From positions 682,001 to 746,000 of the forward strand of contig NZ_CP012670.1 in assembly GCF_004135735.1 (NCBI RefSeq): DNA of 64,000 nucleotides, given 5' to 3'. The position numbers were made by a program, and so were the translations under genes. The notes under the pieces are model-generated. The model was not told the DNA's origin and did no database searches. It saw nothing but the letters and a program-made list of their open reading frames with translations. Below are positions 1 to 43,470 of this stretch, piece by piece; within the stretch, counting starts at the first letter, position 1; each line of letters begins with the position of its first letter. The stretch comes from Sorangium cellulosum (GTDB lineage: Bacteria; Myxococcota_A; Polyangia; Polyangiales; Polyangiaceae).

Positions 1-2983
1 GTTGCGCCCTCCACGGCCCTCCCGCCTCCCCGGCACCGCGTGACGGCTGTCCCTCTCGCTCCGCGCGCCCCCGCTGCCGCGCCGAGAGCAGCGCCCCCAC
101 GGTCGCCCCCGTGGCCGCCGGATCCGCCGCGGCGCCGGCGCCTCGCCGCCTCGCGCGCAGCCGCTCGCCGGCCCGCGCGCCCCACGCGAGCGCCGCTTCC
201 GGCACGGCGAGCCGCCGCGCCGCCACGGCGAGCAGCAACCCGAGCGCGGCCACGAGCACCAGCGGCGGCGTCGCGTCCCGGTACGCGAAGCGCCTCGTGC
301 CCCGGTCCTCGAAAATGCCCGCGAGCGTGTCGCGCCGCTTGCCTCCGGTGAACTCCGCGATCCGCCCGAGCAGCGACAGGTCGCTGCCCGTCGGGCGCAG
401 CTCCTCGCCCGCCGTCATCACCGCGCCCGTGGTCCCGACGGCCTCCCCGGTCAGCTCGTCGCGGGCCACCGCGATGTAGGTCCCCGGCCGCGACAGCGGC
501 AGCGCCGCCGTGTACGCGCCCGCGCCCGTCGCCTCCAGCGGGAGCTCGCGCGAGAAGCCGCCCGGCCCCGCGACGTGCACGACCAGCCGGCGGAACGACT
601 GCGCCCGCCCGTCGTCGCCGACCACGCTCGCCCGCACCGACAGCTCGCCCCCCGACGCGGTCGCGTCGAGCCGCACCCGCGGATCCTCGGCCTTGCGCGC
701 CACGTCGCGCGCGGCCTGCGCGATCATCCGCGCCGCCCCCGGCCAGCGGGTCCACGCCGCCCCCCAGCGATCCTTCAGGTCGCTCGTGAACGCCGCGGCC
801 CGGCCGAGCCCCGCCGGCCACACCGCGAGGATCGGATCCCCCTCGGGCCCGGACAGCAGCACCGTCGCCCGCCCCTTCGGCAGCGTCACCACGTAGCCCG
901 CGAGCGGCGGCGCCTCCCCGAACGGAATGCCGGCCGTGATCGACGAGGGCGCGCCCGGCGCGACCCGGAACGGCTCCTCCACGATCGCGCTCCTCGCCGC
1001 CAGGATCGTCTCCTGCGTGAACACCGCGGGCAGCCGCGTGGCGTCCTCGACGAGGTAGAAGCGGCCGCCGCCGAGGCGCGACAGCACCTCGAGCTCCGGC
1101 ACGTCGCTGCCCTGGCCCAGCGCGACCACGCTCGTCGTGATGCCGCGGCGCCTCGCCGCCTCCACCATCGCGCGGCTGGACCCCATGTTCTCCGCGTCCG
1201 ACCCGTCCGCGAAGAGCAGCACGTGCTTCAGGTTCACGGCCTCGCGGTCGAGCGCCCCGTAGGCCGCCGCGAGCGTGATGTCGACGAAGATGCCGCCGCC
1301 GCCCGGACCCACGGCGCGGATCGCCCGGTCGATGGCGGCCTCGTCCGTGACCGGCCCGAGCGGCACGCTCCACTTCACCACGGTGTCGACGTGCGCGACG
1401 CCGAGCCGATCCCCGGGCCCGAGCAGCGACGCCGACCGGGCGGCGGCCTCGTTGGCGAGCTCGAGCTTCGTGTGGGCGCCGGCGCTCGCCGCCATCGAGC
1501 CGGAGATGTCGATGCCGATCACCTCCGCGAGGCTCGCCCGCCGGCGCTCCTGCTTCAGATCGAACGAGACGGGGGAGACCTCCTCGAGCGGCGTCCGCGC
1601 GTAGCCGCCCGGCCCCATGCTCCGGTCGCCGCCCATCAGGACGAGCCCGCCGCCGAGGTCGCGGACGTAGCTCGCGAGCGCGTCGATCTGGCCCGGCGAC
1701 AGGTCGGACGCGCGGATGTCGCTGAGCACGACCACGTCGTAGCCGGCGAGCCCCCCGAGATCGGCGGGGACGCGGCCCAGGTCCCCCTCGTCCACCCGGA
1801 ACGCGCCGTCCGCGAGCGCCCGCGCGACGAACGCGCCCTGGCCCGCGTCGCCCTCCAGCACGAGCGCGGCGGCGGGGCCGCGGACGCGGAGGAACGCGCT
1901 CCCGGCGTTGTCCTCGGCGGCCCCGTCGAGCGCCGGATCCTTCGCGGTGATCTCGACGTCGTAGCGGTGCAGCCCCGGCCCCGGCGCCACCTCGCGGATG
2001 CGCAGCACGTCCTCGCCCGCCGCGATCGAGGCGTCGGCGCGGGCGATGAGCTCACCGTCGCGGCGGAGGCGGATCTCGATCTCGGCCGGGGCCGGCGACG
2101 AGGTGACGAGCCGCAGATCGAGCGCCTCGCCCTCGTCCGCCCGCGCGGGCGCGCGGAGGGCGACCACGCGGACGTCGGGGACGAGCCGCTGCTCCAGCGG
2201 GAGCACGTCGATGGGGAGGCCGGCCGCGACCGCGGCCGCGGCCGCGGCCATCGTGTCGCCGCGGGTCGGCACGCCGTCGGTGAGCAGCACCACGCGCGCC
2301 GCGGAGTCCGACGGCACCTCGGCGAGCGCGCGCCGGATGCCCGCGGCGAGGTCCGTCCCGTCGCGGCCGAGCGCGACCCGCTGCGGGGCGGGGAGCTGCG
2401 AGCGCGGGCGCGGAGGATCCTCGGTCGCGGCGCCGGCGGCGAACACGATCGTGGCGATCCGGTCGTCCTCGCGCATGCCGAGCTCGGCCACCGAGAGCTC
2501 GTGCGCGATCCGCTCGTCGGCGCTCGGCACGAGGTCGATCGAGCGGCTGCGATCGATCGCGAGCAGGACGGTGAGCCGGTCGAGCGGCCTGCCGAGCTCC
2601 GGCCCCGCGACGGCCATGGCGGCGGCGAACCCGGCGAGGGGCGTGAGGAGATCCCGGAGCCGCGCGCGCCACGGGCCCTGCCGCTGGGCGTGCGGCGCGG
2701 CGCGCGCGAGCGCGAGGTACCGGAGCGCGATGAACGACGTGGCGCCCAGGGCGAGCAGGGTGCCCCAGGGGCGCGCGAGGCGGAGGTAGACGTCCTCCAG
2801 CAGCCCGCACCAGACGAGGCCCACGTGGAGCGCGGGGAGCGCGCCGGCCACCATCCAGGCGAGCAGGATCGGGCGGCGCGCCGCGCCGCGCCGGAGGGCG
2901 ACGCGGAGCAGCGCGGCGAAGGCGAGGGCGCCGGCCAGCGTGACGGCGCAGGGCAGGGCGCGCAGCACGGCCGCCGGGATCAA
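1..2983 (-). CDS. vWA and amidotransferase-like membrane protein, 3' end outside window
   Basis: The reading frame is open from a TTG at 2983 to the left edge (at least 994 codons), so the C-terminus is missing. The TTG has GGAGG six bases upstream and no usable ATG lies close by. Three hydrophobic segments (about residues 5-26, 36-60, 69-87) are followed by a first vWA domain whose metal site reads DRSRS (about 135). A region resembling a class I glutamine amidotransferase fold comes next (about 390-450), then a second vWA domain with DISGS (about 490), and another membrane segment near 905-920. This order matches large membrane proteins found beside MoxR ATPases, DUF58 proteins and BatA-like proteins; they are thought to act in metal-dependent assembly or stress complexes of the envelope, but no reaction is known. 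The partners DUF58 and BatA lie on the same strand 8 kb away, and no MoxR gene is visible. Confidence 0.85.
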   Translation of the reverse strand, partial: MIPAAVLRALPCAVTLAGALAFAALLRVALRRGAARRPILLAWMVAGALPALHVGLVWCGLLEDVYLRLARPWGTLLALGATSFIALRYLALARAAPHAQRQGPWRARLRDLLTPLAGFAAAMAVAGPELGRPLDRLTVLLAIDRSRSIDLVPSADERIAHELSVAELGMREDDRIATIVFAAGAATEDPPRPRSQLPAPQRVALGRDGTDLAAGIRRALAEVPSDSAARVVLLTDGVPTRGDTMAAAAAAVAAGLPIDVLPLEQRLVPDVRVVALRAPARADEGEALDLRLVTSSPAPAEIEIRLRRDGELIARADASIAAGEDVLRIREVAPGPGLHRYDVEITAKDPALDGAAEDNAGSAFLRVRGPAAALVLEGDAGQGAFVARALADGAFRVDEGDLGRVPADLGGLAGYDVVVLSDIRASDLSPGQIDALASYVRDLGGGLVLMGGDRSMGPGGYARTPLEEVSPVSFDLKQERRRASLAEVIGIDISGSMAASAGAHTKLELANEAAARSASLLGPGDRLGVAHVDTVVKWSVPLGPVTDEAAIDRAIRAVGPGGGGIFVDITLAAAYGALDREAVNLKHVLLFADGSDAENMGSSRAMVEAARRRGITTSVVALGQGSDVPELEVLSRLGGGRFYLVEDATRLPAVFTQETILAARSAIVEEPFRVAPGAPSSITAGIPFGEAPPLAGYVVTLPKGRATVLLSGPEGDPILAVWPAGLGRAAAFTSDLKDRWGAAWTRWPGAARMIAQAARDVARKAEDPRVRLDATASGGELSVRASVVGDDGRAQSFRRLVVHVAGPGGFSRELPLEATGAGAYTAALPLSRPGTYIAVARDELTGEAVGTTGAVMTAGEELRPTGSDLSLLGRIAEFTGGKRRDTLAGIFEDRGTRRFAYRDATPPLVLVAALGLLLAVAARRLAVPEAALAWGARAGERLRARRRGAGAAADPAATGATVGALLSARQRGRAEREGQPSRGAGEAGGPWRAQ

Positions 2984-6003: not shown

Positions 6004-6655
6004 GTGAATGGCCAAGCCTCGAATGGGATCTGGGCCTACTATGGCATCAAGAATCAAGCGGATGGTTCGGGCGAGCCTGCCATTGGTCGCGCCCCCAGTC
6101 AAGGGACTGGTATTTGGGATCAGCGAGGCCATGTCTTGTTTGGCGATTTGTTGGCCCTGGTTCAAGACGAGCTGTGTGTCGACATTACGCGGGTCATTGC
6201 TGCCGGCTTCAGTTTTGAGGTCATGTAGACTTGTTCTCTTTCAACCAATCACCAGAGGCGGTTGCGTGCGGTCTCTGCCCTGGTCCCGGCGAATTATGAC
6301 ATCGATCTTCCTGTCAACGCCCATGAGCCAATCGCGCACATGGGCGTGACCGGCATGAGCGATGGAACTTGCCCTTGGGACGGGGGCAGGGAGAGGGGCG
6401 AAGCGCGCCGCTCTGGGGCACGCCGAACACGCCGAAGACAACGGGTGAACCATACCGGAGATGGTGCCCACGACAACGCAGGATAGCAAATCGCATCGCT
6501 GCTATGATTTCATGGGATGCAGGGCCGGGTGTCCCGTTGACGTGTGCACGTTTGACGGTGGATATGTCGCTGCTCATGCCGACGGCGGGACCGGTGATAA
6601 TGGCGCCACGACCTGGATACCTAAAGTGACCCGGGAGTCCTTCGCCCAGTTCTGA
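6004..6655 (+). pseudogene. Decayed CE1/PHB-depolymerase-like esterase
   Basis: Three pieces in two frames read together as the C-terminal two thirds of a feruloyl-esterase/polyhydroxybutyrate-depolymerase-like protein. Frame 1 from 6004 gives an esterase-like stretch ending ITRVIAAGFSFEVM; the family has GFSFGG, the nucleophile elbow. It is broken by TAG at 6226-6228 and then continues in the same frame (RAVSALVPANYD, GMSDGTCPWDGG). Near 6380-6395 the frame shifts, a TGA at 6446-6448 sits where the family usually has Cys, and the rest reads YDFMGC, VCTFDGGYVAAHADGG and a typical W-I-P ... F-A-Q-F end. The signal peptide and N-terminal part are missing, and the elbow Gly residues are lost. 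With two stops, one frameshift and a missing start it cannot make an active enzyme. It is lower in GC than its surroundings. Confidence 0.8.
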
Positions 6656-19360: not shown

Positions 19361-19369
19361 CGAGAATCC

Positions 19370-19682
19370 GCCGCACCCGGGATGGGATCCGCCCAGGTTG
19401 GGTTCCGCAGGATCGGATCCGCCGCACCCGGGTTGGGATCCGCCCAGGTTAGGTTCCGCCGCACCCAGGTTGGGTCCCGCGGCACCCAGGTTGGGTCCCG
19501 CGCCCGCACCCAGGTTGGGTTCCGCGCACCCAGGTTGGGGTCGGTTCGCCCGCACCCAGGTTGGGTTCCGCGCACCCAGGTTGGGGTCGGTTCGGGTTCG
19601 GTTCCGCCCGCACCCAGGTTGGGTTCCGAGGTTGGGCTCCGCCCTCACCCCGGTTGGGATCCGCCCAGGTTGGGCGCCGGCG
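19370..19682 (+). repeat. REP-like array 1, about 14 copies
   Basis: Some 14 direct copies of a roughly 19-base unit, best form CACCCAGGTTGGGTTCCGC, lie between two convergent genes (stops at 19360 and 19686). Variants include CCCGGGTTGGGATCC and CCCAGGTTGGGGTCGG. Copies are 18-25 bases apart without unique spacers. The core CCC(A/G)GGTTG is shared with arrays 2 and 3 around the RAYT gene. The array supplies the last bases before the stop of the beta-propeller protein gene. Confidence 0.85.
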
Positions 19683-19685
19683 CGC

Positions 19686-21191
19686 TCAGGTCTGGTCCAG
19701 GCCATCCTCGGTACGGCTCCCCGCGGCCACGCCGCCCCGCTGCCGTCGCCCGACCGCGGCCGCCGCCAGCGCCGCGGCGGCGAGGGCACCGGCCCTGCCA
19801 TCGCCCGAGCCCCCGGTGCGGCAGCCGCAGCCTCTGTCGTCCGGCCGCGGTGCGCTGCCCGACGGCTCGGACGCTCCGCTCGAGCCGCCGGTGCTCGCCA
19901 CGCCTCCTCCCCCGCTCGCCGCCGTCGCTCCGCCGGTCTCGGCGGGGCCGCTCGTGCCGGCGCCGGGGTCGGTCCCGTCGCCCGGGGGACCGGCGTCCGG
20001 CGTGCAGTCTTTGTGGCCGGTCATCAGCGCGATGCGCGGCCAGTCCGCCGGACAAAGCTCCCCGGCCGGCGTGCCCGCCGCGCACGCGAGCGGGCCGCGC
20101 AGGCACGGCTGGCGCAGCAACGGCTCGAACGTCGCGCCGCCGTCGGCCGAACGGCCGATCGTGAAGCCGTCCAGGAACTCGGTCGCGCACGCGTGGAGGC
20201 CCGCCTCCGTCCAGGCGAAGCAGCGCGGCGCCACGCTCGAGACCTTCTCGAACTCGAGCGTGGACGAGGGCGCGCGCCACACGCCGTCGATGTCGCTGCC
20301 CACCGCCACCGTCGCGCCGTCCGGCGAGATCCCGAATGCGCGCGCGAAGCCCTGCGTCTCGAACACGGGCGCGAACGTCGCGCCGCCGTCGGTCGAGACG
20401 AGCAGCGACCCCGGCGCGCCCGCGAGCCGCACGTAGAGCACGCCGGCATCGAAGGGATCGATCCCCGCGATGTACGGAGCGCGCGCGGTCGTGCTCCCCG
20501 GGACCGTCGCGGCCTCCCACGTCTCTCCGCCGTCGAGCGACCGCGCGAGCGCGCCCTGGACCGTTGCGCCTGCGTTCACGAGGCCGCTCACGTACACGCG
20601 CTGCGGATCCGAGGGGGCGATGTCGACCGTGCGCACCTGAAGACCCGGCGGCATCGGCGCCCCCGCCCTCGCCCAGCTCGCGCCGCCGTCGCGCGACTCC
20701 CAGAGCCTCGGGCTGACGCCGCCCGCCACCGCGACCACGTGCGACGGGTCGCCTTGCCGGACCGAGAGATCGATCACCTCCTGCCCGGCGAGCTCCGCGG
20801 CGACCGCCCAGCCGCAGCCGCCCTCGGTGCCGACCGCGATCCCGTTGCTCAGGGCGGCGAGCACCCTGCCGCCCGCCGCCATCGCGATCGGCGGATACAC
20901 GCCGTTCGTGTCGTCGTACCCGACCGCGCGCTCGCAGATCCAGTGCCAGCTCGCGCCCCCGTCCCGCGTGGTGAGCAGCCCGTACGTCATCCGGGCAACG
21001 GCGCGCGCAGGATCCGACGGGTCGAACACGATCTGGTCCGCAGCCGGGAAGACGCCGTTCGCGGCGGCAGGGGAGGGCAGCGCCGCGAGCGTGGAGGTGA
21101 CCGCCACGGCCGTGGCCAGCGCGGCGCCGCGCCGCGGGCGAGCGCGCGGCGCGCGGACAGGCAAGGGGAAGGACGGCATCAGGGGACGCAT
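19686..21191 (-). CDS. Secreted BNR/Asp-box beta-propeller protein with MYXO-CTERM-like tail
   Basis: A 501-residue exported protein. After a signal peptide (cleavage near PAAANG) several repeats carry the Asp-box pattern S-x-D-G-G-x-(S/T)-(W/F) (RDGGASW, SLDGGETW, STDGGATF, SADGGATF), as in sialidase-like and Ycf48/VPS10-like propellers. No sialidase Arg triad could be assigned, so an enzyme activity is doubtful. A Gly/Ser-rich linker leads to GCGCRTGG, a hydrophobic helix and RRQR, a good MYXO-CTERM-type ending, though about 16 residues extend beyond the Arg cluster. ATG 21191 or the ATG four codons later could be the start. The 3' end abuts REP-like array 1. Confidence 0.8.
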   Translation of the reverse strand: MRPLMPSFPLPVRAPRARPRRGAALATAVAVTSTLAALPSPAAANGVFPAADQIVFDPSDPARAVARMTYGLLTTRDGGASWHWICERAVGYDDTNGVYPPIAMAAGGRVLAALSNGIAVGTEGGCGWAVAAELAGQEVIDLSVRQGDPSHVVAVAGGVSPRLWESRDGGASWARAGAPMPPGLQVRTVDIAPSDPQRVYVSGLVNAGATVQGALARSLDGGETWEAATVPGSTTARAPYIAGIDPFDAGVLYVRLAGAPGSLLVSTDGGATFAPVFETQGFARAFGISPDGATVAVGSDIDGVWRAPSSTLEFEKVSSVAPRCFAWTEAGLHACATEFLDGFTIGRSADGGATFEPLLRQPCLRGPLACAAGTPAGELCPADWPRIALMTGHKDCTPDAGPPGDGTDPGAGTSGPAETGGATAASGGGGVASTGGSSGASEPSGSAPRPDDRGCGCRTGGSGDGRAGALAAAALAAAAVGRRQRGGVAAGSRTEDGLDQT

Positions 21192-24046: not shown

Positions 24047-24817
24047 ATGTCGTCTCGAGAGCCCTCCGGCGAGCCGAGATCGCGTCCGAGCGAGCCGGCG
24101 TCCGAGCCGGGAAGCGGAGGGGGCCGCGCTGCGCCGGGGGCCAGTCAGGGCCGCGCCGCGCGCTGGGGCGTCAGGGCGCGCGCCGTCGTCGTGCTCCTCG
24201 CGCTCGCGCTCTCGCTCGGCGCGGTCGCCGCCGTCGCGTTCCAGCGTTACGTGTCGGTGCATCTGCGAGCGCCGCCCAAGGTCCCGACCTGTGTCCGCGG
24301 GGCGCGGGTCGCGTTGCGCAAGCCGGTCGAGGCGTCCGGCACGGAGCCACGGCTGACGGCGGCGGGCGAGACGGTCTATCTCACGCCCGGGGAAGACCGC
24401 GCCGTCGCGTGCGCGTTCCAGCTCGACGAGGCGCTCTCGCGCCGCCTCGCCGGGGCGCTGGCAGAGCACGATCCTGACCAGCGCGCGGCCCGGCTGCTCG
24501 AGGTCGTGCGCGATCACGTCCCGGCGGAGCCGGCGCACGATCGCGTGGCCGTCGCGGCGTACATGATGGCGTCGGCAGCCCTGCGCGCGTTGCCTGCGGA
24601 GGTGCCCGCGGTTCGCGCCGCGTCAGAGTCGCTCGAGCAGGTCCACGCCTGCCGCTTCCGCACGCGGCGCCCTTGCTCGACGCGCCCCTCACTGCCCGCG
24701 CTCGTGTGGCTTGCCGGCATCCCGGCGGCGCTGAGCTGGCTCGCGCTCCTCGGGATCGGCCTCGCGGCGAGCGCGGCGCGGTACCGGAGGCGCGACCCGC
24801 GACCCGACCCGGGTTGA
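24047..24817 (+). CDS. Membrane protein of unknown function
   Basis: A 256-residue protein with a Pro/Ser-rich N-terminus, one transmembrane helix (about 38-60), a hydrophilic exported region with four cysteines, a second helix (about 226-246) and an Arg-rich end. I do not recognise the family. The last codons (D-P-R-P-D-P-G-stop) are made from REP-like repeat units, so the array has probably replaced or extended the original 3' end. It begins 43 bases after the preceding gene and may be co-transcribed with it. Confidence 0.6.
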   Translation: MSSREPSGEPRSRPSEPASEPGSGGGRAAPGASQGRAARWGVRARAVVVLLALALSLGAVAAVAFQRYVSVHLRAPPKVPTCVRGARVALRKPVEASGTEPRLTAAGETVYLTPGEDRAVACAFQLDEALSRRLAGALAEHDPDQRAARLLEVVRDHVPAEPAHDRVAVAAYMMASAALRALPAEVPAVRAASESLEQVHACRFRTRRPCSTRPSLPALVWLAGIPAALSWLALLGIGLAASAARYRRRDPRPDPG

Positions 24818-25077
24818 CCCGACCGGGGTTGACCCGACCGGGGTTGACCCGACCCCGGGTTGATCCGTCCCAGGTTGAGGGTCGCGACCCGACCCGGGTT
24901 GACCCGTCCCAGGTTGAGGGTCGCAACCCGACCCGGGTTGACCCGGCGCGATCCGACCCGGGTCGATGCTCAACAACCCGACCCGAGTTGGATCCTCGAT
25001 CCGGGTTGCGGCCTGCGACCCGGGTTGCGGCCTGCGCAACCCGATCCGGGTTGACCCGACCCGGGTTGAGCATCGAC
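24797..25077 (+). repeat. REP-like array 2, about 13 copies, 3' of the RAYT gene
   Basis: About 13 copies of the core CCC(G/A)GGTTG in the same orientation as array 1, separated by GACCCG-type spacers. Many copies are palindromic (CGACCCGGGTTG reads nearly the same on the other strand). The right half is bounded by a 13-base inverted repeat, GTCGATGCTCAAC at 24962-24974 and its complement at 25065-25077, a layout like the paired inverted REPs of enterobacterial BIMEs. The array overlaps the end of the membrane protein gene at 24817. Confidence 0.85.
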
Positions 25078-25324
25078 TGGTTCGTCTATCCGCACGACCG
25101 GCCGCGTCCGAGCCGGCAGAGCCCATCGCACCCTGCCGTAGACGCCGCTGCGCGTGCGCCCGACACCGCATGGCGCATGAGAATCCGCCCGCGCAGCGTC
25201 ATGCGAACGAACTGCCGCCCACTTCGCCTCCTCGAGGAGATGGACGTTTCCCACGACGACGCGTCGGTGTTCCCGCCCGCCCCTGACCGTCTCGCGTTCT
25301 CGCTTTACCGAGCCCGTGCAGTCA
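25078..25324. other. Spacer between array 2 and the RAYT gene
   Basis: No gene or repeat core was found. It could contain the right-hand recognition site of the RAYT element, but none was identified. Confidence 0.4.
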
Positions 25325-26245
25325 CTACGTCGTGAGCACGGCGTCGGTCACGCAGGCGCCGTGAAACGTGCGCATCCACCACGTCCCCGCAGGGAATACA
25401 GCGCTGCGTACGCCGGCACGCCATCGTTCGAGCGCCGCGCGGTACGATGCGCGAAACGCACGCACCGTGGCTGCAGCGATCCGCCACGCGCTGTCCTGCT
25501 CACGCCCGACCGCGAACGTCGGATTGCGGTCGCGCAGCGATTCGAAGCTCGTGGCCCGCTCGTAAGGGGAGATCTTGCTGGCTCGCTCGGCGCCCAGAAC
25601 ATGGAGCCCCTGCCGCTGCATCTCCGCATGTGCCTGCGCCTCCTGTCGCTCGAGCTCGGCCGCGACGTCACGGCGGAAGCTCTCTGCGCTGTCCCGCTCG
25701 ACGGCGGGCGGCAACGCGAGCGGGAGCGCCACTTCTTCGGGCCACTGTGGGTTTTCCGGGTCGAGGTACACCGTGGGACGCACGGCGCGCAGCACACCGT
25801 GGCCGAGCTCGCCCACATCCACCTTGGCGCCCGGCCACTCACGTGCATGCCGGACCAGGCCAGCGGCCACAGGGTTCGCGAGGACGTACGCGATCTTCTC
25901 GACCACGGCCGCGCGCGTCAGGAGTCGTACCACGCTTGTGGCCTCGTGGTCCCATACCGGCCCCTCCCACTGGCGGAGCACCTTCGTCCCGAGAGCGACG
26001 ATGCGATGGAAAAATTGCAAGAAGCGCGGCAGGACGCCCTGCGTATCGGTCACGATGACATGCAGATGCGATGACATCGCGCACAGCGCATGGACCTCGA
26101 TGCCGTGGCGGCGGGTCGACACGGCGAGCGCGTAGATCAGGAGCTGGGTGATAGCCGCATCTGGGCGGAAGAGCAGATGCCGGCGCAGGACGCGGCGGGT
26201 GATCAGGTAGGTGGCGCCGGCTGCAATCTCGCGGGGCTGGCTCAT
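25325..26245 (-). CDS. REP-associated tyrosine transposase (RAYT)
   Basis: A 306-residue Y1/HUH single-strand transposase of the IS200/REP-associated family. The HUH motif is HLH (His60, His62) in AMSSHLHVIV, and the catalytic tyrosine is Tyr120 in EKIAYVLANPVAAGLV, the usual Y-x2-x-N-P-V-x-A-G-L block. Known RAYTs cut and join single-stranded DNA at REP palindromes and are thought to disperse them. Start ATG 26245 is favoured because homology starts there; the longer frame upstream is made of translated repeats. REP-like arrays lie on both sides: array 2 on the 3' side in plus orientation, array 3 on the 5' side in minus orientation. The residues needed for catalysis are intact. The C-terminal part past residue 170 is longer than in typical RAYTs. 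Confidence 0.88.
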   Translation of the reverse strand: MSQPREIAAGATYLITRRVLRRHLLFRPDAAITQLLIYALAVSTRRHGIEVHALCAMSSHLHVIVTDTQGVLPRFLQFFHRIVALGTKVLRQWEGPVWDHEATSVVRLLTRAAVVEKIAYVLANPVAAGLVRHAREWPGAKVDVGELGHGVLRAVRPTVYLDPENPQWPEEVALPLALPPAVERDSAESFRRDVAAELERQEAQAHAEMQRQGLHVLGAERASKISPYERATSFESLRDRNPTFAVGREQDSAWRIAAATVRAFRASYRAALERWRAGVRSAVFPAGTWWMRTFHGACVTDAVLTT

Positions 26246-26356
26246 GGCCGGCGAACACTGACAAATGCCGTGCCGGGGCTCAGGGGGAATTATTTCAAGG
26301 ACTTGTCCCGTTCGGCGGGTGGCGGCCGCCAGGTTGTCCGCCAGCTTGGTGCTGCC

Positions 26357-26457
26357 CAACCTGGGCCAACCCGAACTGCGACTCAACCTGGGTCGGGTCG
26401 CGGCGTTCAACCTGGGTCGGGTCGCGGCGTCCAACCTGGGTCGGGTCGCGGGTCGCG
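26357..26457 (-). repeat. REP-like array 3, 5' of the RAYT gene
   Basis: Four copies of CAACCTGGG at 26357, 26384, 26408 and 26432; the last three form a perfect 24-base period with GTCGGGTCGCGGCG. On the minus strand the core is CCCAGGTTG, identical to arrays 1 and 2 but inverted relative to them. It fills the space between the RAYT start and the 3' end of the MATE gene. Confidence 0.85.
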
Positions 26458-26459
26458 GC

Positions 26460-27827
26460 TCATGCGACCCGCGCAATGTCGCGTCTCGTGAGGCGCAGGA
26501 GCCGGATGACGAGGACGATCGAGTTCGTGACGAGCCCTGTCGTGAGCCCCCACCAGAGCCCCTTTGCGCCGAGGCTCAGCGCGAACCCGAACAGGAGCGT
26601 GAGCGGAAAGCCGACCAGCCAGTGCGAGGCGATGTTGGCGAGGAACGGCAGCCGCACATCCCCTGCGCCCCGCAGCGCCCCGGCCGCGACCACCTGAACG
26701 CCGTCGCAGAGCTGGAACAGCGCGGCCACGTGGAGGAGCTGCGCGCCGATGTCGATGACCTCCGCGTCGGACGTGAACAGGCCCACGAGCGCGCGCGGGG
26801 CCAGGGAGAACACGAGCGCGCCGCACGCCATGACCGACGTCCCCAGCGCGAGGCCGAGCAGCGCGGAGCGCCGCGGGGACGCGCCGGCGCCGATCGCGTG
26901 GCCGACCCGCACCGACGTGGCGCCCGCCACCCCGAGCGCCCCCATGAACGTGAAGCTCGAGAGCCCGATCGCGATCTGGTGGGCCGAGGCGGCGTGCGCC
27001 CCGAGGCGCCCCACGATCATCCCGAGCAGCGAGAAGGCGCCGCCCGCGACCGAGAGGTGCAGCCCGATGGGCACGCCGAGCCGGAAGATCGTCCCGGCCG
27101 CGACGGGCTCGCGCGCGGACGCGGGGCGACGCGACCGCGCCGAGGCCACGACGATCGCGGCGAGCACGACGCTCCCCGCGCTCGTCGCGAGCCCGGCGCC
27201 CAGGGGGCCGAGGCGCGGCAGCCCGAGCCGCGGCAACCCCAGCCACTCCAGCATGTCGTCGCCGCGGACGAGCAGCCCGCACATCGCCGCGTTGACGACG
27301 TTGCCGGCGATCGCGGCGACCAGCGCGGGCCGCGTCTCGCCGTGGGCTTGCAGGAACGTCCTGTACACGATGTACGCGAGGAACGGGAGGAACCCGGGCG
27401 CGTGGCCGACCAGGTACGCGCGCACGCGCGGGATGAGCGCGGCCTCGACGCCCATCGGCTCGAGCAGCAGCGTCGCGGCGAGCGACAGCGCGACGCTCGG
27501 CGCCGTGAGGAGCGCGCAGCCACGCATCGTCGACCGGAGCGCCCCCCACGCCCGCGCGGGCTGGCCGGCCCCGATCGCCTGCGCCGCGAGCGGCTCGAGG
27601 GCGAACGCGATCCCCATCCCGAACGCCGTCAACGCGAACACGATGGAGCGCGCGATCCCGATCGCCGCGAGATCTTGCACCGAGTCGCGGCCGATGATGG
27701 CCGTGTCGACCAGGCCCATGGACACGAGGCCGAGCTGGGCGAGGGTGATCGGCAGCGCGAGGCGAGCGAGCGTGCGCAGCTCGGTGCGCGCATCGGCCCC
27801 GGGAGGCCCGAGCGAAGTGCGGCTCAT
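26460..27827 (-). CDS. MATE family efflux transporter
   Basis: A 455-residue inner-membrane exporter with about 12 hydrophobic helices in two similar halves, the usual length for the family. Recognisable MATE features are the early helix with LVDTAIIG, R-x-F-L-Q-A-H-G-x-T in the fifth helix region, and the second half with VGRLGAHAASAHQIAIGLSS and VRVGHAIGAG. It probably exports cationic drugs or metabolites by sodium or proton antiport. ATG 27827 has a GGAGCCAGG ribosome site; an ATG 25 codons upstream lies inside a tandem repeat and is rejected. The stop codon abuts REP-like array 3. Confidence 0.92.
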   Translation of the reverse strand: MSRTSLGPPGADARTELRTLARLALPITLAQLGLVSMGLVDTAIIGRDSVQDLAAIGIARSIVFALTAFGMGIAFALEPLAAQAIGAGQPARAWGALRSTMRGCALLTAPSVALSLAATLLLEPMGVEAALIPRVRAYLVGHAPGFLPFLAYIVYRTFLQAHGETRPALVAAIAGNVVNAAMCGLLVRGDDMLEWLGLPRLGLPRLGPLGAGLATSAGSVVLAAIVVASARSRRPASAREPVAAGTIFRLGVPIGLHLSVAGGAFSLLGMIVGRLGAHAASAHQIAIGLSSFTFMGALGVAGATSVRVGHAIGAGASPRRSALLGLALGTSVMACGALVFSLAPRALVGLFTSDAEVIDIGAQLLHVAALFQLCDGVQVVAAGALRGAGDVRLPFLANIASHWLVGFPLTLLFGFALSLGAKGLWWGLTTGLVTNSIVLVIRLLRLTRRDIARVA

Positions 27828-27852
27828 CCTGGCTCCGTGGTTCCCGCGTCTA

Positions 27853-27921
27853 GCCCCGGGGCCGCGCTGCGTCAACGCGGCCCCGGGGCCGCGCTGCGTC
27901 AACGCGGCCCCAGGGCCGCGC
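27853..27921. repeat. 27-bp tandem repeat, 2.6 copies
   Basis: Two identical 27-base units and a partial third lie at 27853-27879, 27880-27906 and 27907-27921. Each contains GGCCCCGGGGCC-type palindromes. It is located between the MATE start and the 3' end of the next minus-strand gene, and could act as a folded spacer or terminator. Confidence 0.75.
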
Positions 27922-27926
27922 GCGGC

Positions 27927-29375
27927 TCATCGCGCTGCCGACCCGACCGCTGCGTGAGACGGGGCCGGGTCTGCCTTCTCCGTGGCGCCGTGCTGGCCAC
28001 CCTCGTGCGCGCCGAGCCCGGCGTCGGCGCCGTCCGGCCCGAGGCCGATGGCGCGTCTGTGCAGGAACATCAACAGCCGCTGTGGCTCGTCGCCGAGCGG
28101 AACGAGCCCGATCCGCTGCTCATTGCTGGCCTGGGCGATCCCGCTGAGGAGCAAGCTGACCGTGAGATCGCTCTTCGCGTGAGGGAGCGAGACCCCGGCC
28201 CCGGTGAAGTTGACCGGGCAGCCGCCATTCACGAGGTGGACCACGCGCCCGGCGAGGCTCACGCAATACCAGTAGTGGGACGGGTCCTCGCGATCGCCCA
28301 GGAAGAGCGCCTGTCCCCGGAGGGACCCGTGCTCGAGATCCGACCCGTCCCGGCGGACGACCAGCTCCGGCGGGCGCGGCTGGGAGCGGATCTTCCACGC
28401 CGCGAACTCCAGGTCGAGCGAGGAGCAGCTGACGAGCCACACGCCGTCCTTGAGGTGGGGCCAGTGCGCCTCGTTTAGGGTCGTCCTGCCGCTGCACCCG
28501 AACACCATGTCGGCCCGCTCGAGGAGCCGCTCGTACGGCGCGTCGGCGCCGCCTCGCAGCGCCGGATCGTGGACGAGCACCTCGATCCCGCGCCGCCTGA
28601 GGCACGCCGCCACCGCCTTGCCGATGGCGCCGTAGCCGACCACGAGCGCCGTCTTGCTCGGGTCGATGCGCCCGACGCGGCGCTCCAGGTGCGCGTCGAC
28701 GCTCTCTCCGATGTACGTCGACTCGACGTTCCTCTTCGTCCACGAGCGCGCGACGTCGACGACCGGCATCCGCAGATCGGTGCTCTCCAGCTCGAAGATC
28801 CCGCGCGAGGTGTGCTCGACCGACGCGAACACGTCGACGAGCCCGCGGAAATGGTCGTGCGCGACGCGGATGAGCTTGCCGCCGTCGTCGACGAGCAGGA
28901 TCTTGCGCCGGCCGCCGGCCTTCGCCCACCTGGCGACCGTCGCGGTCAGCGCGTCGATCGCGGCCGCCTCCAGCGCCTGGCCGAGGGGGAGCCGCTCGTC
29001 CATCGAATAGCTCGAGCTGTGCACCGTGTAGCCGCGGTCGAGGAGACAGGCGACGACGCTGAGGTTCGTCGAGTAAGGCTTGCCGAGCACGACGGCGTTC
29101 CGGGGATCGAGCCCCCAGCGCTCCAGCTTGCGCAGGACGGCGTCGCTGTCCTGCAGGAGGTGCATCGAGGCGACCAGGAAGCAGTCCCCGAGGTCGACGT
29201 CCGGCGCCAGCGCGTGCGCCATGGCATCGAGGACGGGCAGGGTCACGCCGGCCTCGACGCCCACCCCCACACGACCGGAGACGAGCCCGTGCTTGCCGTG
29301 GGTCTTGAACAACCGCCGTCGCTCCGAACGATTGTTCCGCGCGACGCTCGAGAATGTCGAAGAGAGAGGGTGCAT
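27927..29375 (-). CDS. S-adenosylhomocysteine-hydrolase-like NAD-binding protein
   Basis: A 482-residue protein with a Rossmann NAD motif VVGYGAIGKAVA (about 237-248) set in an SAH-hydrolase-like frame: the KPYSTN and VEHTSRG segments correspond to the substrate-side STQDD and VEETTTG regions of AhcY, and VFGCSGRTTLNEAHWPHLKDG matches the T-G-N/D-x-x-x-H region. The catalytic residues of AhcY are not conserved clearly, so it is a divergent relative with unknown substrate. The C-terminal 50 residues are low-complexity. ATG 29375 has AAGGAC upstream; the open frame continues for 88 codons upstream without support. Confidence 0.7.
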   Translation of the reverse strand: MHPLSSTFSSVARNNRSERRRLFKTHGKHGLVSGRVGVGVEAGVTLPVLDAMAHALAPDVDLGDCFLVASMHLLQDSDAVLRKLERWGLDPRNAVVLGKPYSTNLSVVACLLDRGYTVHSSSYSMDERLPLGQALEAAAIDALTATVARWAKAGGRRKILLVDDGGKLIRVAHDHFRGLVDVFASVEHTSRGIFELESTDLRMPVVDVARSWTKRNVESTYIGESVDAHLERRVGRIDPSKTALVVGYGAIGKAVAACLRRRGIEVLVHDPALRGGADAPYERLLERADMVFGCSGRTTLNEAHWPHLKDGVWLVSCSSLDLEFAAWKIRSQPRPPELVVRRDGSDLEHGSLRGQALFLGDREDPSHYWYCVSLAGRVVHLVNGGCPVNFTGAGVSLPHAKSDLTVSLLLSGIAQASNEQRIGLVPLGDEPQRLLMFLHRRAIGLGPDGADAGLGAHEGGQHGATEKADPAPSHAAVGSAAR

Positions 29376-30307
29376 GTCCAGGGGTCCTTCTTGCCGAGGT
29401 GAGCTGCCGGGGCGGCTCGCGGCGCCCGGCCGAGCTCCTGTTGCTGGTTTTCGCGAGAGCACCGACGGCCTCGAGTCACCGCGAGGCGGGGACGCGCGAC
29501 GGCGCGGGCGGTGCCTCTCGGACCGCTCCGGAAGACGCAGAGACGCCAGCGACCCCCCTCGCGCCCCGAGCGCCCATGGCGTCAGGCCGCTGTGCTGTTG
29601 ACGCGCCGAGGCCTCGCCCCGTGCGCACCTCCCTGTCAATGCAACCCGAGGGCCAGGCCCAGAAGAGCGGAATCACGGCCGTTCCTGCGAGCCCGCGGGC
29701 CGAGGAGGCGGCCCGCGGGTGTGACATGTCACGGCGCGCTGGCAGGTCGAGCAGCGCCGGAAGCGGCGGCGCAGCTCCCGGCGGGGGCGCCCGGGCGCTC
29801 ATTTCCGCGGCGCGAGACGCCTCGAGCGCGCCACCGCCCCGGCGGGCGATGTCACGTGACATGTCGCACCCTGGCGTGACATGCGCCACGCGCCTGGGCG
29901 ACAACGCGCAGGCGCGGACGCCGAAATCGCTGCCGACGGCGGACCTGGAGGCGTTCATGACGATCGGCCGTGTCCTGCGGAATGGCTTCGGCTTTCCGAC
30001 GACCCCCTTCAGCGTGACGTGGCGGCCTTCGTGATCGAACGGCGCGTCCTCCATAGCAGGCGGACAGGCGCGCTCATAGCAGGCGGACAGGCGCGCTCGT
30101 CCACTGACTTGAATCGACCTGGGGCCAGCACACGTTCAAGCGGTATCGCGGCGCCGCGGGGGAGCGGCGGTGGGCAGAGGGCGCGGGGCGGGGGGGACGA
30201 GGGCTGCCCCGGGGGCCAGGCGGGGGCGGGGCGGTGGCCCTCCTCGGCGAGGGCTCCTCCGCGGCGCACCAGGGACGGGCCTGGGCGACGGTGCTAGGCT
30301 CTGGACC
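29376..30307. other. Long divergent intergenic region
   Basis: There are 932 bases without a credible gene; the open frames on both strands are low-complexity Ala/Arg/Pro translations. It contains a cluster of palindromic TGACAT/ATGTCA sites at 29721-29883 (separate entry). It must hold the promoters of the SAH-hydrolase-like gene (leftward) and the DinB-like gene (rightward). Between 30055 and 30090 the block AGCAGGCGGACAGGCGCGCTC is present in two tandem copies. Confidence 0.5.
29721..29883. promoter_or_regulatory. Cluster of GTGACATG palindromes
   Basis: GTGACATGTCAC (29721-29732) is a perfect 12-base palindrome, ATGTCACGTGACAT (29849-29862) a perfect 14-base palindrome, and GTGACATGCG follows at about 29876. 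Four to five copies of the half-site TGACAT in 160 bases of intergenic DNA between divergent genes suggest binding sites for a dimeric regulator. The regulator is not identifiable from this window. Confidence 0.45.
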
Positions 30308-30919
30308 ATGCAGCACGACGGTCCTGCCGCCCCGCATCAGCCCGTGGCCGGCGAAGCTCGTGGCTATCTGATCCGGCAGTTCGAGATAGCGTGGCAGCTC
30401 GCCAGCTATCACCTCGACGGGCTCGGCACCGAAGAGTGCTTGTGGCGCCCTGCGGACGAGGGATTGCACGTTCATCGGGCCGCCGATGGCGCGTGGCGCG
30501 CCGACTGGCCGGAGCACGAGGGGTATGATCTCGGCCCGCCGAGCATCGCGTGGCTGACGTGGCATCTCGGCTTCTGGTGGTCCATGGTGCTCGACCGCTC
30601 GTTCGGCGCCGGAGCCCTCGCCCGCGAGGACGTGACGTGGCCTGGCAGCGCCGACGGCGTGCGCGCGTGGCTCGGCGGGCTACAGGGACGGTGGCGAGGG
30701 GCGCTCGAGCGGGCCACCGACGACGATCTGCGATCGCCGCAGCGAACCCGATGGCCCTTCCAGGACCGCCCGTTCGGTGACGTCGTCGCGTGGGTCAACG
30801 TCGAGCTCACGAAGAACGCCGCCGAGATCGGCTACGCACGCTTCCTCCACGCTCGGAGGCCCCCTGAGAGCGCCGAACAGAGCCGGACCTGGCCAGGCGG
30901 CCGAGGGGGGCAAGGCTAG
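30308..30919 (+). CDS. DinB-like (DfsB-type) protein
   Basis: A 203-residue four-helix-bundle protein of the DinB/YfiT superfamily. The pattern has an early L-x-x-F-E-I-A-W-x-L-A-S-Y-H-L, the central I-A-W-L-T-W-H-L-G-F-W-W with a His that in the family belongs to a three-His metal site, and a late helix with E-L-T-K-N-A-A-E-I-G. Family members act as metal-dependent thiol transferases (bacillithiol, mycothiol, glutathione) or have unknown roles. ATG 30308 was chosen over an upstream in-frame start because the preceding 46 codons are low-complexity. Confidence 0.75.
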   Translation: MQHDGPAAPHQPVAGEARGYLIRQFEIAWQLASYHLDGLGTEECLWRPADEGLHVHRAADGAWRADWPEHEGYDLGPPSIAWLTWHLGFWWSMVLDRSFGAGALAREDVTWPGSADGVRAWLGGLQGRWRGALERATDDDLRSPQRTRWPFQDRPFGDVVAWVNVELTKNAAEIGYARFLHARRPPESAEQSRTWPGGRGGQG

Positions 30920-31307
30920 TCCTGCGTCACCGAAGTTCGTCCCGGGATCGTCGCGGAGGGGCCGGAGCGCAGGCGGGCCACAGAGTGCCGCGGAGCGGTG
31001 TGCGGGTACGAGGGGGCGCCATTTGAAAAAATGAACGATAGAGGGGCGCCAATTAAACAATGTAAATCGAAGCCTCGAACAATCCGCTCCAGATAGAACC
31101 AGTGCTTCTGGTGTGCCGCCATGGAGGCACGGGAGGCGCAAAGAGAGACGTCAGGGAGAGCAAAGACTCGCTCTTTGCGCGATTTGTGCTTTCCTCATGT
31201 CGCCTCTGGAGAGAGGCTTTCGATCGGGGCACCACGGTGTGCCGGGTGGGCGCCGATGCGCCCATGTCGGAGCGGTCGAGCTCCGGAGCGAGGAGAGGAG
31301 CGTGATT
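30920..31307. other. Intergenic with AT-rich imperfect direct repeat
   Basis: No gene. At 31013-31068 two copies of a block GGGGCGCCA-(T/A)TT-AAA-A-ATG-AA occur about 28 bases apart in an AT-rich island (TTTGAAAAAATG and AATTAAACAATG), which stands out against the surrounding DNA. This may be a promoter or leftover of an insertion. It lies 240 bases upstream of the GH114 gene. Confidence 0.4.
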
Positions 31308-32390
31308 ATGCGTCGTTCGTGTCCTGGGGTGGTCAAGTCGCTGATCCCTGTCCTTTCGACAGTGCTTGTCGCGTGCAGCGATGCCGGCACCGAGGCGGGC
31401 GGCGCAGGAGGCATGGGCCACGACGCGCCCGAGCGCTCGAGCGCGCCGGCCTCGGTGTCCGGCTCGGCGACGACCGGCTCGGCGACGACCGGCTCGGCGA
31501 CGACCGGCTCGGCGACGACCGGCTCCTCGACGACCGGCTCGGCGACGACCGGCTCCTCGACGACCGGCGCCTCGACGACCAGCTCGTCGACGGCCTCGGG
31601 GAGCGGCCCCGATCTCTGGATCCCGGCGCTCGAGACGTCGTGGCACTGGTTGCTCAGCCACCCCCTCGACCTGAACGATCCCAAGGACATGGGCCTGGTC
31701 GATCCCACCGGAGCGCCCCTCGATACCCCACCTCCCACGGTCTACGACCTCGACTGGGAGCACACGCCGGCGGAGACGGTCGCCGCCCTCCACGCGAGGG
31801 GCGCCAGGGTCATCTGCTACGTCGACGTCGGCGCGTTCGAGGACTACCGCTCGGACGCCGGCGGCTTCCCGGAGTCGGTCAAGGGCAACCCGGATCACCA
31901 CTGGGAGGGCTCGTTCTGGCTCGACATCCGGCAGATCGACGTCCTCGGGCCGATCATGCAGGCCCGGTTCCAGGTCTGCAAGGACAAGGGCTTCGACGCC
32001 ATCGAGCCCGACGAGGTCGACGGCTATGCCAATGACACCGGGTTCCCGCTCACCTACGAGGACCAGATCGCCTACAACCGATTCATCGCCGATCTCGCCC
32101 ATTCGATGGGCATGTCCGTCGGGCTCAAGGGAAACGTCGAGCAGGCCGAGGACCTGTGGCCGTACTTCGACTGGACGCTGAACGAGCAGTGCTTCGAGTA
32201 CGACGAGTGCGAGATCCTCTTCGATACCTTCGTGGCCAACGGAAAGGCCGTGTTCCACGTGGAGTACGACGATCCCTACTCGGGTCACATGACCGACAGG
32301 TCGCTCTTCTGCGAGCAGGCGAACGCGTGGAACTTCAACAGCATGGAGATGCCGCTCTACCTCGACGGCGGCCGATGGCCCTGCCGGTGA
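31308..32390 (+). CDS. Secreted GH114-like glycosidase (endo-alpha-1,4-polygalactosaminidase type)
   Basis: A 360-residue lipoprotein enzyme. Signal peptide with Cys23 after LVA, then a low-complexity linker of nine or so SATTG/SSTTG units encoded by a 15-base tandem repeat (about 31460-31590). The catalytic domain carries the GH114 marks: W-x-W-L at its start, VYDLDWEHTP, ARVICYVDVGAFEDYR, WLDIRQ, GFDAIEPDEVDGY with the acidic pair, and the late FVANGKAVFHVEY. The family cleaves galactosaminogalactan-type polymers, so attack on fungal or self exopolysaccharide is plausible for a predatory or soil myxobacterium. ATG 31308 has GGAG eight bases upstream. Confidence 0.85.
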   Translation: MRRSCPGVVKSLIPVLSTVLVACSDAGTEAGGAGGMGHDAPERSSAPASVSGSATTGSATTGSATTGSATTGSSTTGSATTGSSTTGASTTSSSTASGSGPDLWIPALETSWHWLLSHPLDLNDPKDMGLVDPTGAPLDTPPPTVYDLDWEHTPAETVAALHARGARVICYVDVGAFEDYRSDAGGFPESVKGNPDHHWEGSFWLDIRQIDVLGPIMQARFQVCKDKGFDAIEPDEVDGYANDTGFPLTYEDQIAYNRFIADLAHSMGMSVGLKGNVEQAEDLWPYFDWTLNEQCFEYDECEILFDTFVANGKAVFHVEYDDPYSGHMTDRSLFCEQANAWNFNSMEMPLYLDGGRWPCR

Positions 32391-32453
32391 CCACGGCCCT
32401 CCTCGCGCCGGGCCCGCCGCGGGCGTCGCGCCCCGTGCCGGCGTGCTCTCACC

Positions 32454-42864: not shown

Positions 42865-43470
42865 TTACGGGTCGACGCGCGACGCGAGGTACCTGGCCGC
42901 GAGCGCGCCGACCACGCGGGCGTCCTCTCGCCAGCGGCCGCCGCTCGTGAGCTTGTCCGCGTCGCTGGACGCGGCGATCGTGCCCGGGTTGGGCGCGTGC
43001 GTTCGGTTCGAGAGCTGGATCTCGTCGAGCACCTTGCCGTCGGGCGTCGTGATCCGGAGCGTCAGGATGAGCCGGCTCGGCTTCGAGGAGACGACCGCGT
43101 AGTAGCCGGGCTCCAGGGAGGCGATGTAGGGCCGGATCAGGAACGGCGCGGACGTGGGGCCGTCGGCCGGCGCGACCTCGATGCCCTCCTCCCTGGCGCG
43201 CTCGATCAGCGCCTTCGCGAACTCCTCGTCGATGGTCACCTTGTCTGTCAGGAAGCTTTGCTGCTCGTCCCGGTCCTGGTCGGAGAGGTACACGGCCTCG
43301 GGCTGATCGCCGACGCGGAGCCCCGTGTAGTCGACGGGCAGCACGGCGAAGTAGCGCTGGTTCACGAACGTATCGGGGCTTGCCTGGGTCACGACGCGCC
43401 AGCGCGGCGCGCACCCCGTGAGGGCCGCGAGGCCGAGCAGCGCGGCCGCGACGAAGCTGCGACGGTGCAT
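42865..43470 (-). CDS. Small lipoprotein, TolB/LptE-like size, unknown family
   Basis: A 201-residue lipoprotein with lipobox LTGC (Cys20). The body is alpha/beta and ends ... ARYLASRVDP. It looks like the group of outer-membrane lipoproteins whose N-terminal half reads R-Y-F-A-V-L-P-V-D-Y and later L-x-L-x-I-T-T-P-D-G-x-V-L-D-E, seen in DUF4410/DUF4136-type proteins, but I cannot fix the family. AAGGAG lies eight bases before ATG 43470. Confidence 0.6.
   Translation of the reverse strand: MHRRSFVAAALLGLAALTGCAPRWRVVTQASPDTFVNQRYFAVLPVDYTGLRVGDQPEAVYLSDQDRDEQQSFLTDKVTIDEEFAKALIERAREEGIEVAPADGPTSAPFLIRPYIASLEPGYYAVVSSKPSRLILTLRITTPDGKVLDEIQLSNRTHAPNPGTIAASSDADKLTSGGRWREDARVVGALAARYLASRVDP

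Follow-up and report, generated by a model that had tools for sequence, protein, structure and literature searches.

The question raised by this locus is what a transposase has to do with the short repeat that stands on both sides of its gene. The window, the whole stretch of 64 000 nucleotides that was analysed (C1:682001-746000 of the 11.26-Mb single-contig genome of Sorangium cellulosum), carries a gene for an HUH-Y1 transposase resembling the RAYTs, the tyrosine transposases associated with repetitive extragenic palindromic (REP) sequences, and the same core, of consensus CCGACCC(A/G)GGTTG, frames this gene from both sides in two arrays that face it (Table 1). On balance we favour the reading that the core is the probable end sequence recognised and nicked by the transposase, and that the junction between core and host DNA is copied again, by which arrays would be seeded and lengthened. 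The basis of this reading is the association of core and gene, the inward orientation of the cores, the change of the core from clade to clade, the local character of the spacers in about half of the arrays, the dispersal of the core and the constraint on the protein.

The transposase and the core that frames its gene

The transposase reading frame encodes 306 amino acids and is free of internal stops, and H60, H62 and Y120 are unchanged across 18 aligned homologues with identities down to 30 %; the original prediction of an intact Y1/HUH transposase with these three residues is thus borne out. H62 and Y120 are separated by 58 residues, and the motif after the catalytic tyrosine is Y120-VLANPV, of which N124 and P125 are invariant in 18 of 18 homologues. 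The NCBIfam model REP_Tyr_transpos scores 55 bits on the protein, below its cut-off of 80, and the window transposase has no match in Pfam; the named proteins nearest to it come from Sorangium. Pfam Y1_Tnp at E-values up to 0.1 matches 8 of the 18 aligned homologues, and it was unusable for counting copies because at an E-value of 0.001 it matched no gene in the whole genome. When the 18 homologues are combined into a profile, E. coli TnpA_REP (4er8) is retrieved with an E-value of 4.6e-5, whereas the single-sequence query reaches only 0.043. The AlphaFold2 model (predicted local distance difference test, pLDDT, 85.8; predicted template-modelling score, pTM, 0.86) has 4er8 as its top PDB match (template-modelling score 0.70 by target), followed by IS200/IS605 transposases (2xm3, 2vjv and others); these matches cover about 101-144 columns, and the long C-terminal part lies outside any fold assigned. 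The protein is predicted from this model to have the HUH-Y fold, with E. coli TnpA_REP as the nearest solved structure. The ratio of non-synonymous to synonymous substitution rates (dN/dS) is 0.07-0.25 in eight transposase gene pairs, and the protein evolves under constraint.

About 13 plus-strand copies of the core had been claimed on the 3′ side of the gene and four copies in minus orientation on the 5′ side. The four are present as exact matches, and the plus orientation of the others is as described; their number is not, since there are 8 exact CCCRGGTTG (spanning 24808-25068), 10 CCNRGGTTG and, read by eye, 12 GGTTG in all, so that the higher figure includes degenerate copies. The whole window contains 23 exact CCCRGGTTG against 0.76 expected from dinucleotide shuffles, and none of 100 shuffles reaches 23. 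Nor are the repeats restricted to this locus: the genome holds 703 exact CCCRGGTTG, compared with 52 for the reversed word, in agreement with the earlier proposal of a gene lying within its own inward-facing, dispersed repeat. When 185 cores were gathered from 196,012 bp of the same genome, in stretches picked around genes and arrays, their profile read CCGA-CC(C)(A/G)GGTTG, with CCGA preceding the core; in this profile, where GGTTG was fixed by the search pattern, a GT(A/G)G foot is absent.

The identification of these repeats as REPs did not hold up. When a hairpin was sought by single-stranded DNA folding of 92 distinct cores against dinucleotide shuffles, the mean z was -0.19, with 21 % of cores below -1; the 69 A-type cores have a mean z of -0.05 and the 23 G-type cores -0.72. 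Elsewhere the values are +0.51 for seven cores of genome G001, -0.09 for 16 cores of genus g65 and -0.96 for 19 cores of genus g39. A core hairpin is absent in the Sorangium genome, and if there is one in another clade (g39) it is weak. Close neighbours, as set out below, are direct.

One or few RAYT genes had been expected, and the genome has nine copies of the transposase gene, one of them interrupted, together with a fragment; the other copies are 68-83 % identical to that of the window. At 10,559 kb the first 18 residues are missing from the copy; the fragment, at a distance of 1.4 kb, is matched by query residues 1-28, and four minus-strand cores lie past it. Because the sequence between copy and fragment recurs, at about 100 % identity, at about a dozen places, an insertion sequence has probably interrupted this copy (10,559,823-10,562,209; loci L015, L018 and L024). 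Up to 1.2 kb from the gene, inward cores occur on both sides of six of the genome's own copies, on one side of two (1,029 kb and 10,559 kb) and on neither side of one (8,526 kb). Over the genus as a whole, inward cores stand on both sides at 25 of 32 loci, on one side at five and on neither at two, and the innermost core lies at a median of 184 bp before the gene (111-337) and 316 bp after it (30-690). Inward cores number 332 against 40 outward ones at 34 genus loci, and are in excess at 31 of them. All six genus genomes searched hold the transposase gene, in 4-10 copies each, and 86 of the 703 cores are at most 1.5 kb away from a transposase gene of this genome. The core-less lineage represented at 8,526 kb (L016/L025) and in G134 (L065) has kept its position between two species, alongside copies flanked by arrays.

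Arrays, relatives and matching sites

Over half of the roughly 700 cores of the genome stand in head-to-tail rows. Pairs of cores in the same direction and 4-34 bp apart number 378, against 2 for the reversed-word control, and tandem pairs occur in all six genus genomes (23-383 per genome; control 0-8). Inward inverted pairs at the same spacing are found at 2 places in this genome and at 6, 7, 0, 0 and 0 in five other genomes of the genus. In the stretches that were read, where alone outward pairs were counted, neighbouring cores are direct in 135 cases, inward in 5 and outward in 5.

Spacers were compared in 49 arrays with three or more cores, 21 of them from this genome, after trimming of the outermost spacer bases. 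The similarity of adjacent spacers is 0.37 against 0.05 between arrays, and the array mean lies above the between-array 95th percentile in 16 of 45 arrays. The 5′ flank of an array has a similarity of 0.69 to the array's own spacers and 0.48 to those of other arrays, and the corresponding values for the 3′ flank are 0.59 and 0.35; 22 and 23 of 46 flanks, respectively, exceed the 90th percentile of the controls. Spacers are often copies of the DNA adjoining the array, in about half of the arrays. Two arrays of this genome with a period of 21 bp lie in long open frames (L030:3806-4063, at about 1,892 kb, and L029:3172-3387, at about 1,088 kb) and translate in one frame to heptapeptides (PTQVGGG and PTQVEVR), and it may be that the core also expands within coding sequence.

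Across the bacterial order, 144 genomes were surveyed with the gene called at E-values up to 1e-10, giving 64 genomes with the gene and 80 without. The repeats are not similarly frequent where the gene is lacking: at least three tandem core pairs occur in 8 of the 64 genomes with it and in 1 of the 80 without (Fisher P 0.007), and when the two genus genomes are set aside the counts are 6 of 62 and 1 of 80 (P 0.03), both P values being optimistic since the genomes are related. The sole gene-less genome with at least three pairs, G047, has a plain 9-bp tandem. Outside the genus there are 63 tandem pairs in 62 gene-bearing genomes and 21 in 80 gene-less ones, with 10 and 8 respectively in the controls.

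Of 89 homologue loci taken from other genomes, 79 (six of the same genus) have at least 300 bp on each side of the gene. A 10-mer present on both sides with at least three copies was found in inverted orientation at 22 of these 79 loci and in direct orientation at 5, and outside the genus at 19 of 73 and 5; at three of the 22 inverted loci (L034, L077 and L098) it is unlike the core. Large direct repeats surround the homologues at L057 (G049), L056 (G050) and L097 (G035), and G049 has two adjoining homologues. Inspection of 29 loci revealed inverted segments common to both sides, namely GACCCAGGTTGA in G001, CCGACCGGGGTTGA in G068, GAGATCCGACCGAGGTTGGC in G054, AACCTTCCCAGGTTCG in G037, GACCCACGTTG in G012 and GAGACCCGTCCTG in G130, with nothing core-like at several of the 29. 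Homologues across the order, with identities down to 31 %, bear clade-specific forms of the inward core. Tandem pairs of the G054 core were found in 3 of 22 genomes (10, 3 and 1 pairs; controls 0); four genus genomes had none. Of the 14 pairs, 13 lie within 0.5 kb of a transposase homologue. Since the inward segments differ by clade and the G054 core adjoins homologues, the core changes along with the protein lineage. Genome-wide spread of a core was seen in the genus only, the searches having covered two cores, that of the genus and that of G054.

In three relatives (G145, G134 and G144) agreement with the window breaks off at 24784-24787 and is taken up again at 32444-32452, with 71, 65 and 24 bp respectively in between. 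A stretch of 7.66 kb with both arrays, the transposase gene and a MatE gene is thus absent from all three, and its left edge is the start of the 3′-side array. In a further relative, G146, the array marks the end of one contig, and another departs from the window at 24787. Where the window has the solitary array region (19365-19731), G145 has 4 bp, G134 has 349 bp free of cores and G144 has about 1 kb with one CCGGGGTTG. The comparison at the 7.66-kb site is of presence in one genome with absence in three, and the direction of change is not given by it.

Of the 36 other genus loci, 25 were compared with the nine of this genome, and a single copy, the core-less one at 8,526 kb, had both flanks in common with another locus, its partner being in G134; the 6,482-kb locus has one flank, in a different placement, in common with a G134 locus. 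The flanks of seven loci (2,858 of 5,280 flank letters) were also searched for in the genus. At 2,276 kb both flanks are present in four relatives, 1.8-13.6 kb apart and with no homologue reported in between, and at 6,482, 5,932 and 7,673 kb the flanks were found in relatives with no homologue within 20 kb, some contigs being short. The flanks at 10,559 kb occur in multiple copies, and the left flank at 5,801 kb matches itself alone. In the protein tree some copies pair up inside one genome, the closest such pair being L062 and L033 of G134 (synonymous divergence, dS, 0.021; genes 99 % identical); the pair would fit gene conversion better than a jump. From these comparisons the gene copies appear to stand at sites that differ between species, and movement of the whole unit is plausible.

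A proposed mechanism and its alternatives

In the mechanism that we favour, Y120 would nick single-stranded DNA at or beside the core, and the free 3′ end would re-prime on a neighbouring core or on the flank, so that the core and adjoining host DNA are recopied; growth of the array would then take place at the junction of core and host. A core copied into a new single-stranded site could found a solitary array, and the unit of core, gene and core would move now and then, giving gene positions that differ between species. Binding, nicking, re-priming and movement are what we infer from the sequences, as is the enzyme-driven dispersal of the repeat. We also entertain, as a doubtful but conceivable extension, that the enzyme is a RAYT relative that is still mobile, whose core-gene-core unit moves, recopies the host junction into direct arrays and sheds solitary arrays, and which would be intermediate between IS200-like transposons and settled REP systems.

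Several results weigh against the favoured mechanism. Most cores (617 of 703) are more than 1.5 kb from all nine genes, and for these proximity gives no link to the enzyme; local copying of spacers is equally expected from plain slippage, and about half of the arrays are without it. No core is present at the 8,526-kb copy or at its positional counterpart in G134, and tandem pairs of the Sorangium core are few outside the genus even where the gene is present, as the 63 pairs in 62 genomes attest. Shared 9-mers summed over the 79 homologue loci show no inverted excess (607 inverted, 647 direct), a sum dominated by the large direct repeats of a few loci (L056, L057 and L097); counted by locus, inverted 9-mers prevail at 48 and direct ones at 27, with 4 ties. 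Two relatives have a homologue 1-2 kb away from the 1,029-kb flank, so that not every position is new, and the near-identity of L062 and L033 is confined to the gene and its surroundings (about 1,150 bp) and tapers before the cores.

The best of the alternatives, which we nevertheless consider unlikely, is that the arrays are ordinary minisatellites produced by replication slippage or unequal recombination, that a host role as binding site, terminator or peptide repeat keeps the core, and that the transposase is merely resident. Local spacer copying requires no transposase, most cores are distant from every gene copy, and the two 21-bp-period arrays in long open frames read as heptapeptides such as PTQVGGG. 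This alternative does not, however, lead one to expect that the same core, in a fixed inward direction, brackets the genus genes while lineage-specific forms bracket homologues elsewhere, nor that, over the order, tandem cores accompany the gene; and random minisatellites would not be expected to have a single core in common at hundreds of loci (378 pairs against 2). Less probable again is that pre-existing arrays are the preferred insertion target of the transposase unit and not its product. Solitary arrays without a gene do exist, and different arrays lie beside two related gene copies in G134, as insertion into targets might give; but insertion into a one-way array leaves both sides in the same direction, whereas the cores observed face inward (332 against 40), and the innermost cores keep an approximately constant distance from the gene, as parts of a unit would. 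Least credible is a REPtron of the standard type (a RAYT whose REP palindromes chance to be short and GC-rich), to which the HUH-Y fold nearest TnpA_REP, the inverted placement by the gene, the high copy number, the tendency of the g39 core to fold (mean z -0.96, n=19) and the tandem REP clusters already known (PMC3733652, PMC3116915) would be suited, but in which an unfolded core without GT(A/G)G, close pairs that are inverted at 2 places against 378 direct, and nine genes for one core have no part. Identity with REPs was dropped, the tests of hairpin, foot, orientation and copy number all being contrary.

Known systems and features of the window

Published systems are compared here as they appear in the available parts of the papers cited. 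The Sorangium system is closest to the published TIRtrons, in which a RAYT-like HUH-Y1 gene lies between inverted repeats other than GT(A/G)G hairpins (PMC3733652). It shares with them the inverted repeats (both sides at 25/32 genus loci, one side at 5, neither at 2) and their about constant distance from the gene (the medians of 184 and 316 bp given above), and TIR repeats too may form families, as dimers or clusters (PMC3733652). TIR families are, however, moderately abundant, whereas Sorangium has about 700 cores, mainly in direct arrays with locus-specific spacers, both near to and away from several genes. With the published TIR motif GGGGWSAS, GGGTTGAG agrees at 7 of 8 positions and the A-type cores at fewer, judged by eye only.

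REPtrons, REPINs and bacterial interspersed mosaic elements (BIMEs) likewise combine an HUH-Y1 enzyme, a gene between inverted repeats and a repeat dispersed genome-wide (PMC2817692, PMC3116915, PMC8266576). REP clusters that reiterate flanking DNA have been described (PMC3733652), as have some tandem REP arrays (PMC3116915). REPs, however, are built of a hairpin with a GT(A/G)G foot and occur mostly as inverted pairs, none of which applies to the Sorangium core. According to PMC3116915, RAYTs occur as single copies and do not mobilise themselves, and a single RAYT per repeat type is the rule, in contrast to the nine copies here and 4-10 per genus genome; exceptions are subclass 2.3, with several copies (PMC6006769), and families served by several REPtrons (PMC3733652).

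TnpA-Y1 class 3, with its Solibacter repeats (about 600 copies alongside three related genes, with a CnGA foot that recalls the CCGA ahead of the Sorangium core; PMC6006769), was suggested by this foot and copy number, and was dropped on the tyrosine motif, which is Y----Q there and Y120-VLANPV here, as in class 2; its repeats are also described as secondary structures (PMC6006769). Within class 2, subclasses 2.3, 2.4 and 2.6 have median HuH-Y distances of 110, 88 and 82 (PMC6006769) against 58 here, and the helix-turn-helix-like C-terminal extension of subclass 2.1 (RAYT group 1), known to us by description only, was sought as Bac_DnaA_C, HTH_23 and HTH_28 in 18 members at E-values up to 0.1 with no Pfam match. 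The IS200/IS605 elements share the HUH-Y1 fold and a multi-copy gene (PMC2817692, PMC6006769) but have subterminal hairpins and no terminal inverted repeats, in contrast to the unfolded inverted cores and arrays seen here. The epothilone repressor Esi was discarded as a candidate, being described as a cupin protein in the part of PMC5442856 available.

The open-licence papers searched include none that deals with RAYT repeats in myxobacteria, Sorangium included, and such arrays are unmentioned in the available parts of PMC3696898 and of the review PMC8538405. What is new is the combination of genome-wide direct arrays, whose spacers often copy adjoining DNA, with a transposase gene whose several copies occupy different sites in different species; the claim is narrowed because there are precedents in clustered TIR families, reiterated REP clusters, tandem REP arrays and the multi-copy subclass 2.3. 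A multi-copy gene with differing sites, together with an end sequence that probably grows into arrays, would make enzyme cutting and array growth testable, and with them the spread of RAYT repeats. The covariation of core and protein over one bacterial order provides natural variants for the study of specificity.

Table 1. Positions of the transposase gene, core arrays and associated stretch in the window
Feature	Coordinates	Strand	Remarks
RAYT-like HUH-Y1 transposase gene	25325..26245	-	306 amino acids; H60/H62/Y120; 4er8 top structural match
Array 3′ of the gene, cores facing the gene	24797..25073	+	8 exact CCCRGGTTG, 10 CCNRGGTTG
Array 5′ of the gene, cores facing the gene	26357..26457	-	4 exact CCCAGGTTG at 26357-26440
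Solitary array, no transposase gene	19365..19731	+	10 exact cores, 19392-19672
Single core	42983..42991	+	Exact-core search
End of a further array, last four bases	1..4	+	Array at genome 681798-682004, mostly beyond the window
7.66-kb stretch with both arrays, transposase gene, MatE gene and more genes	24788..32451		Missing at the matching site in three relatives

The gene-less array and the array end at the first four bases of the window are additions to what the original prediction had listed. The part of the 7.66-kb stretch at 26460-32390, missing from the relatives, also encodes a MatE protein, a protein similar to 2-hydroxyacid dehydrogenases and AdoHcyase, a DinB_2 protein and a GH114 protein. 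A scan with the MatE protein yielded 36 loci, none of them under the name Sorangium, which were left aside, and the MatE gene has an 87 %-identical match at another place in G144.

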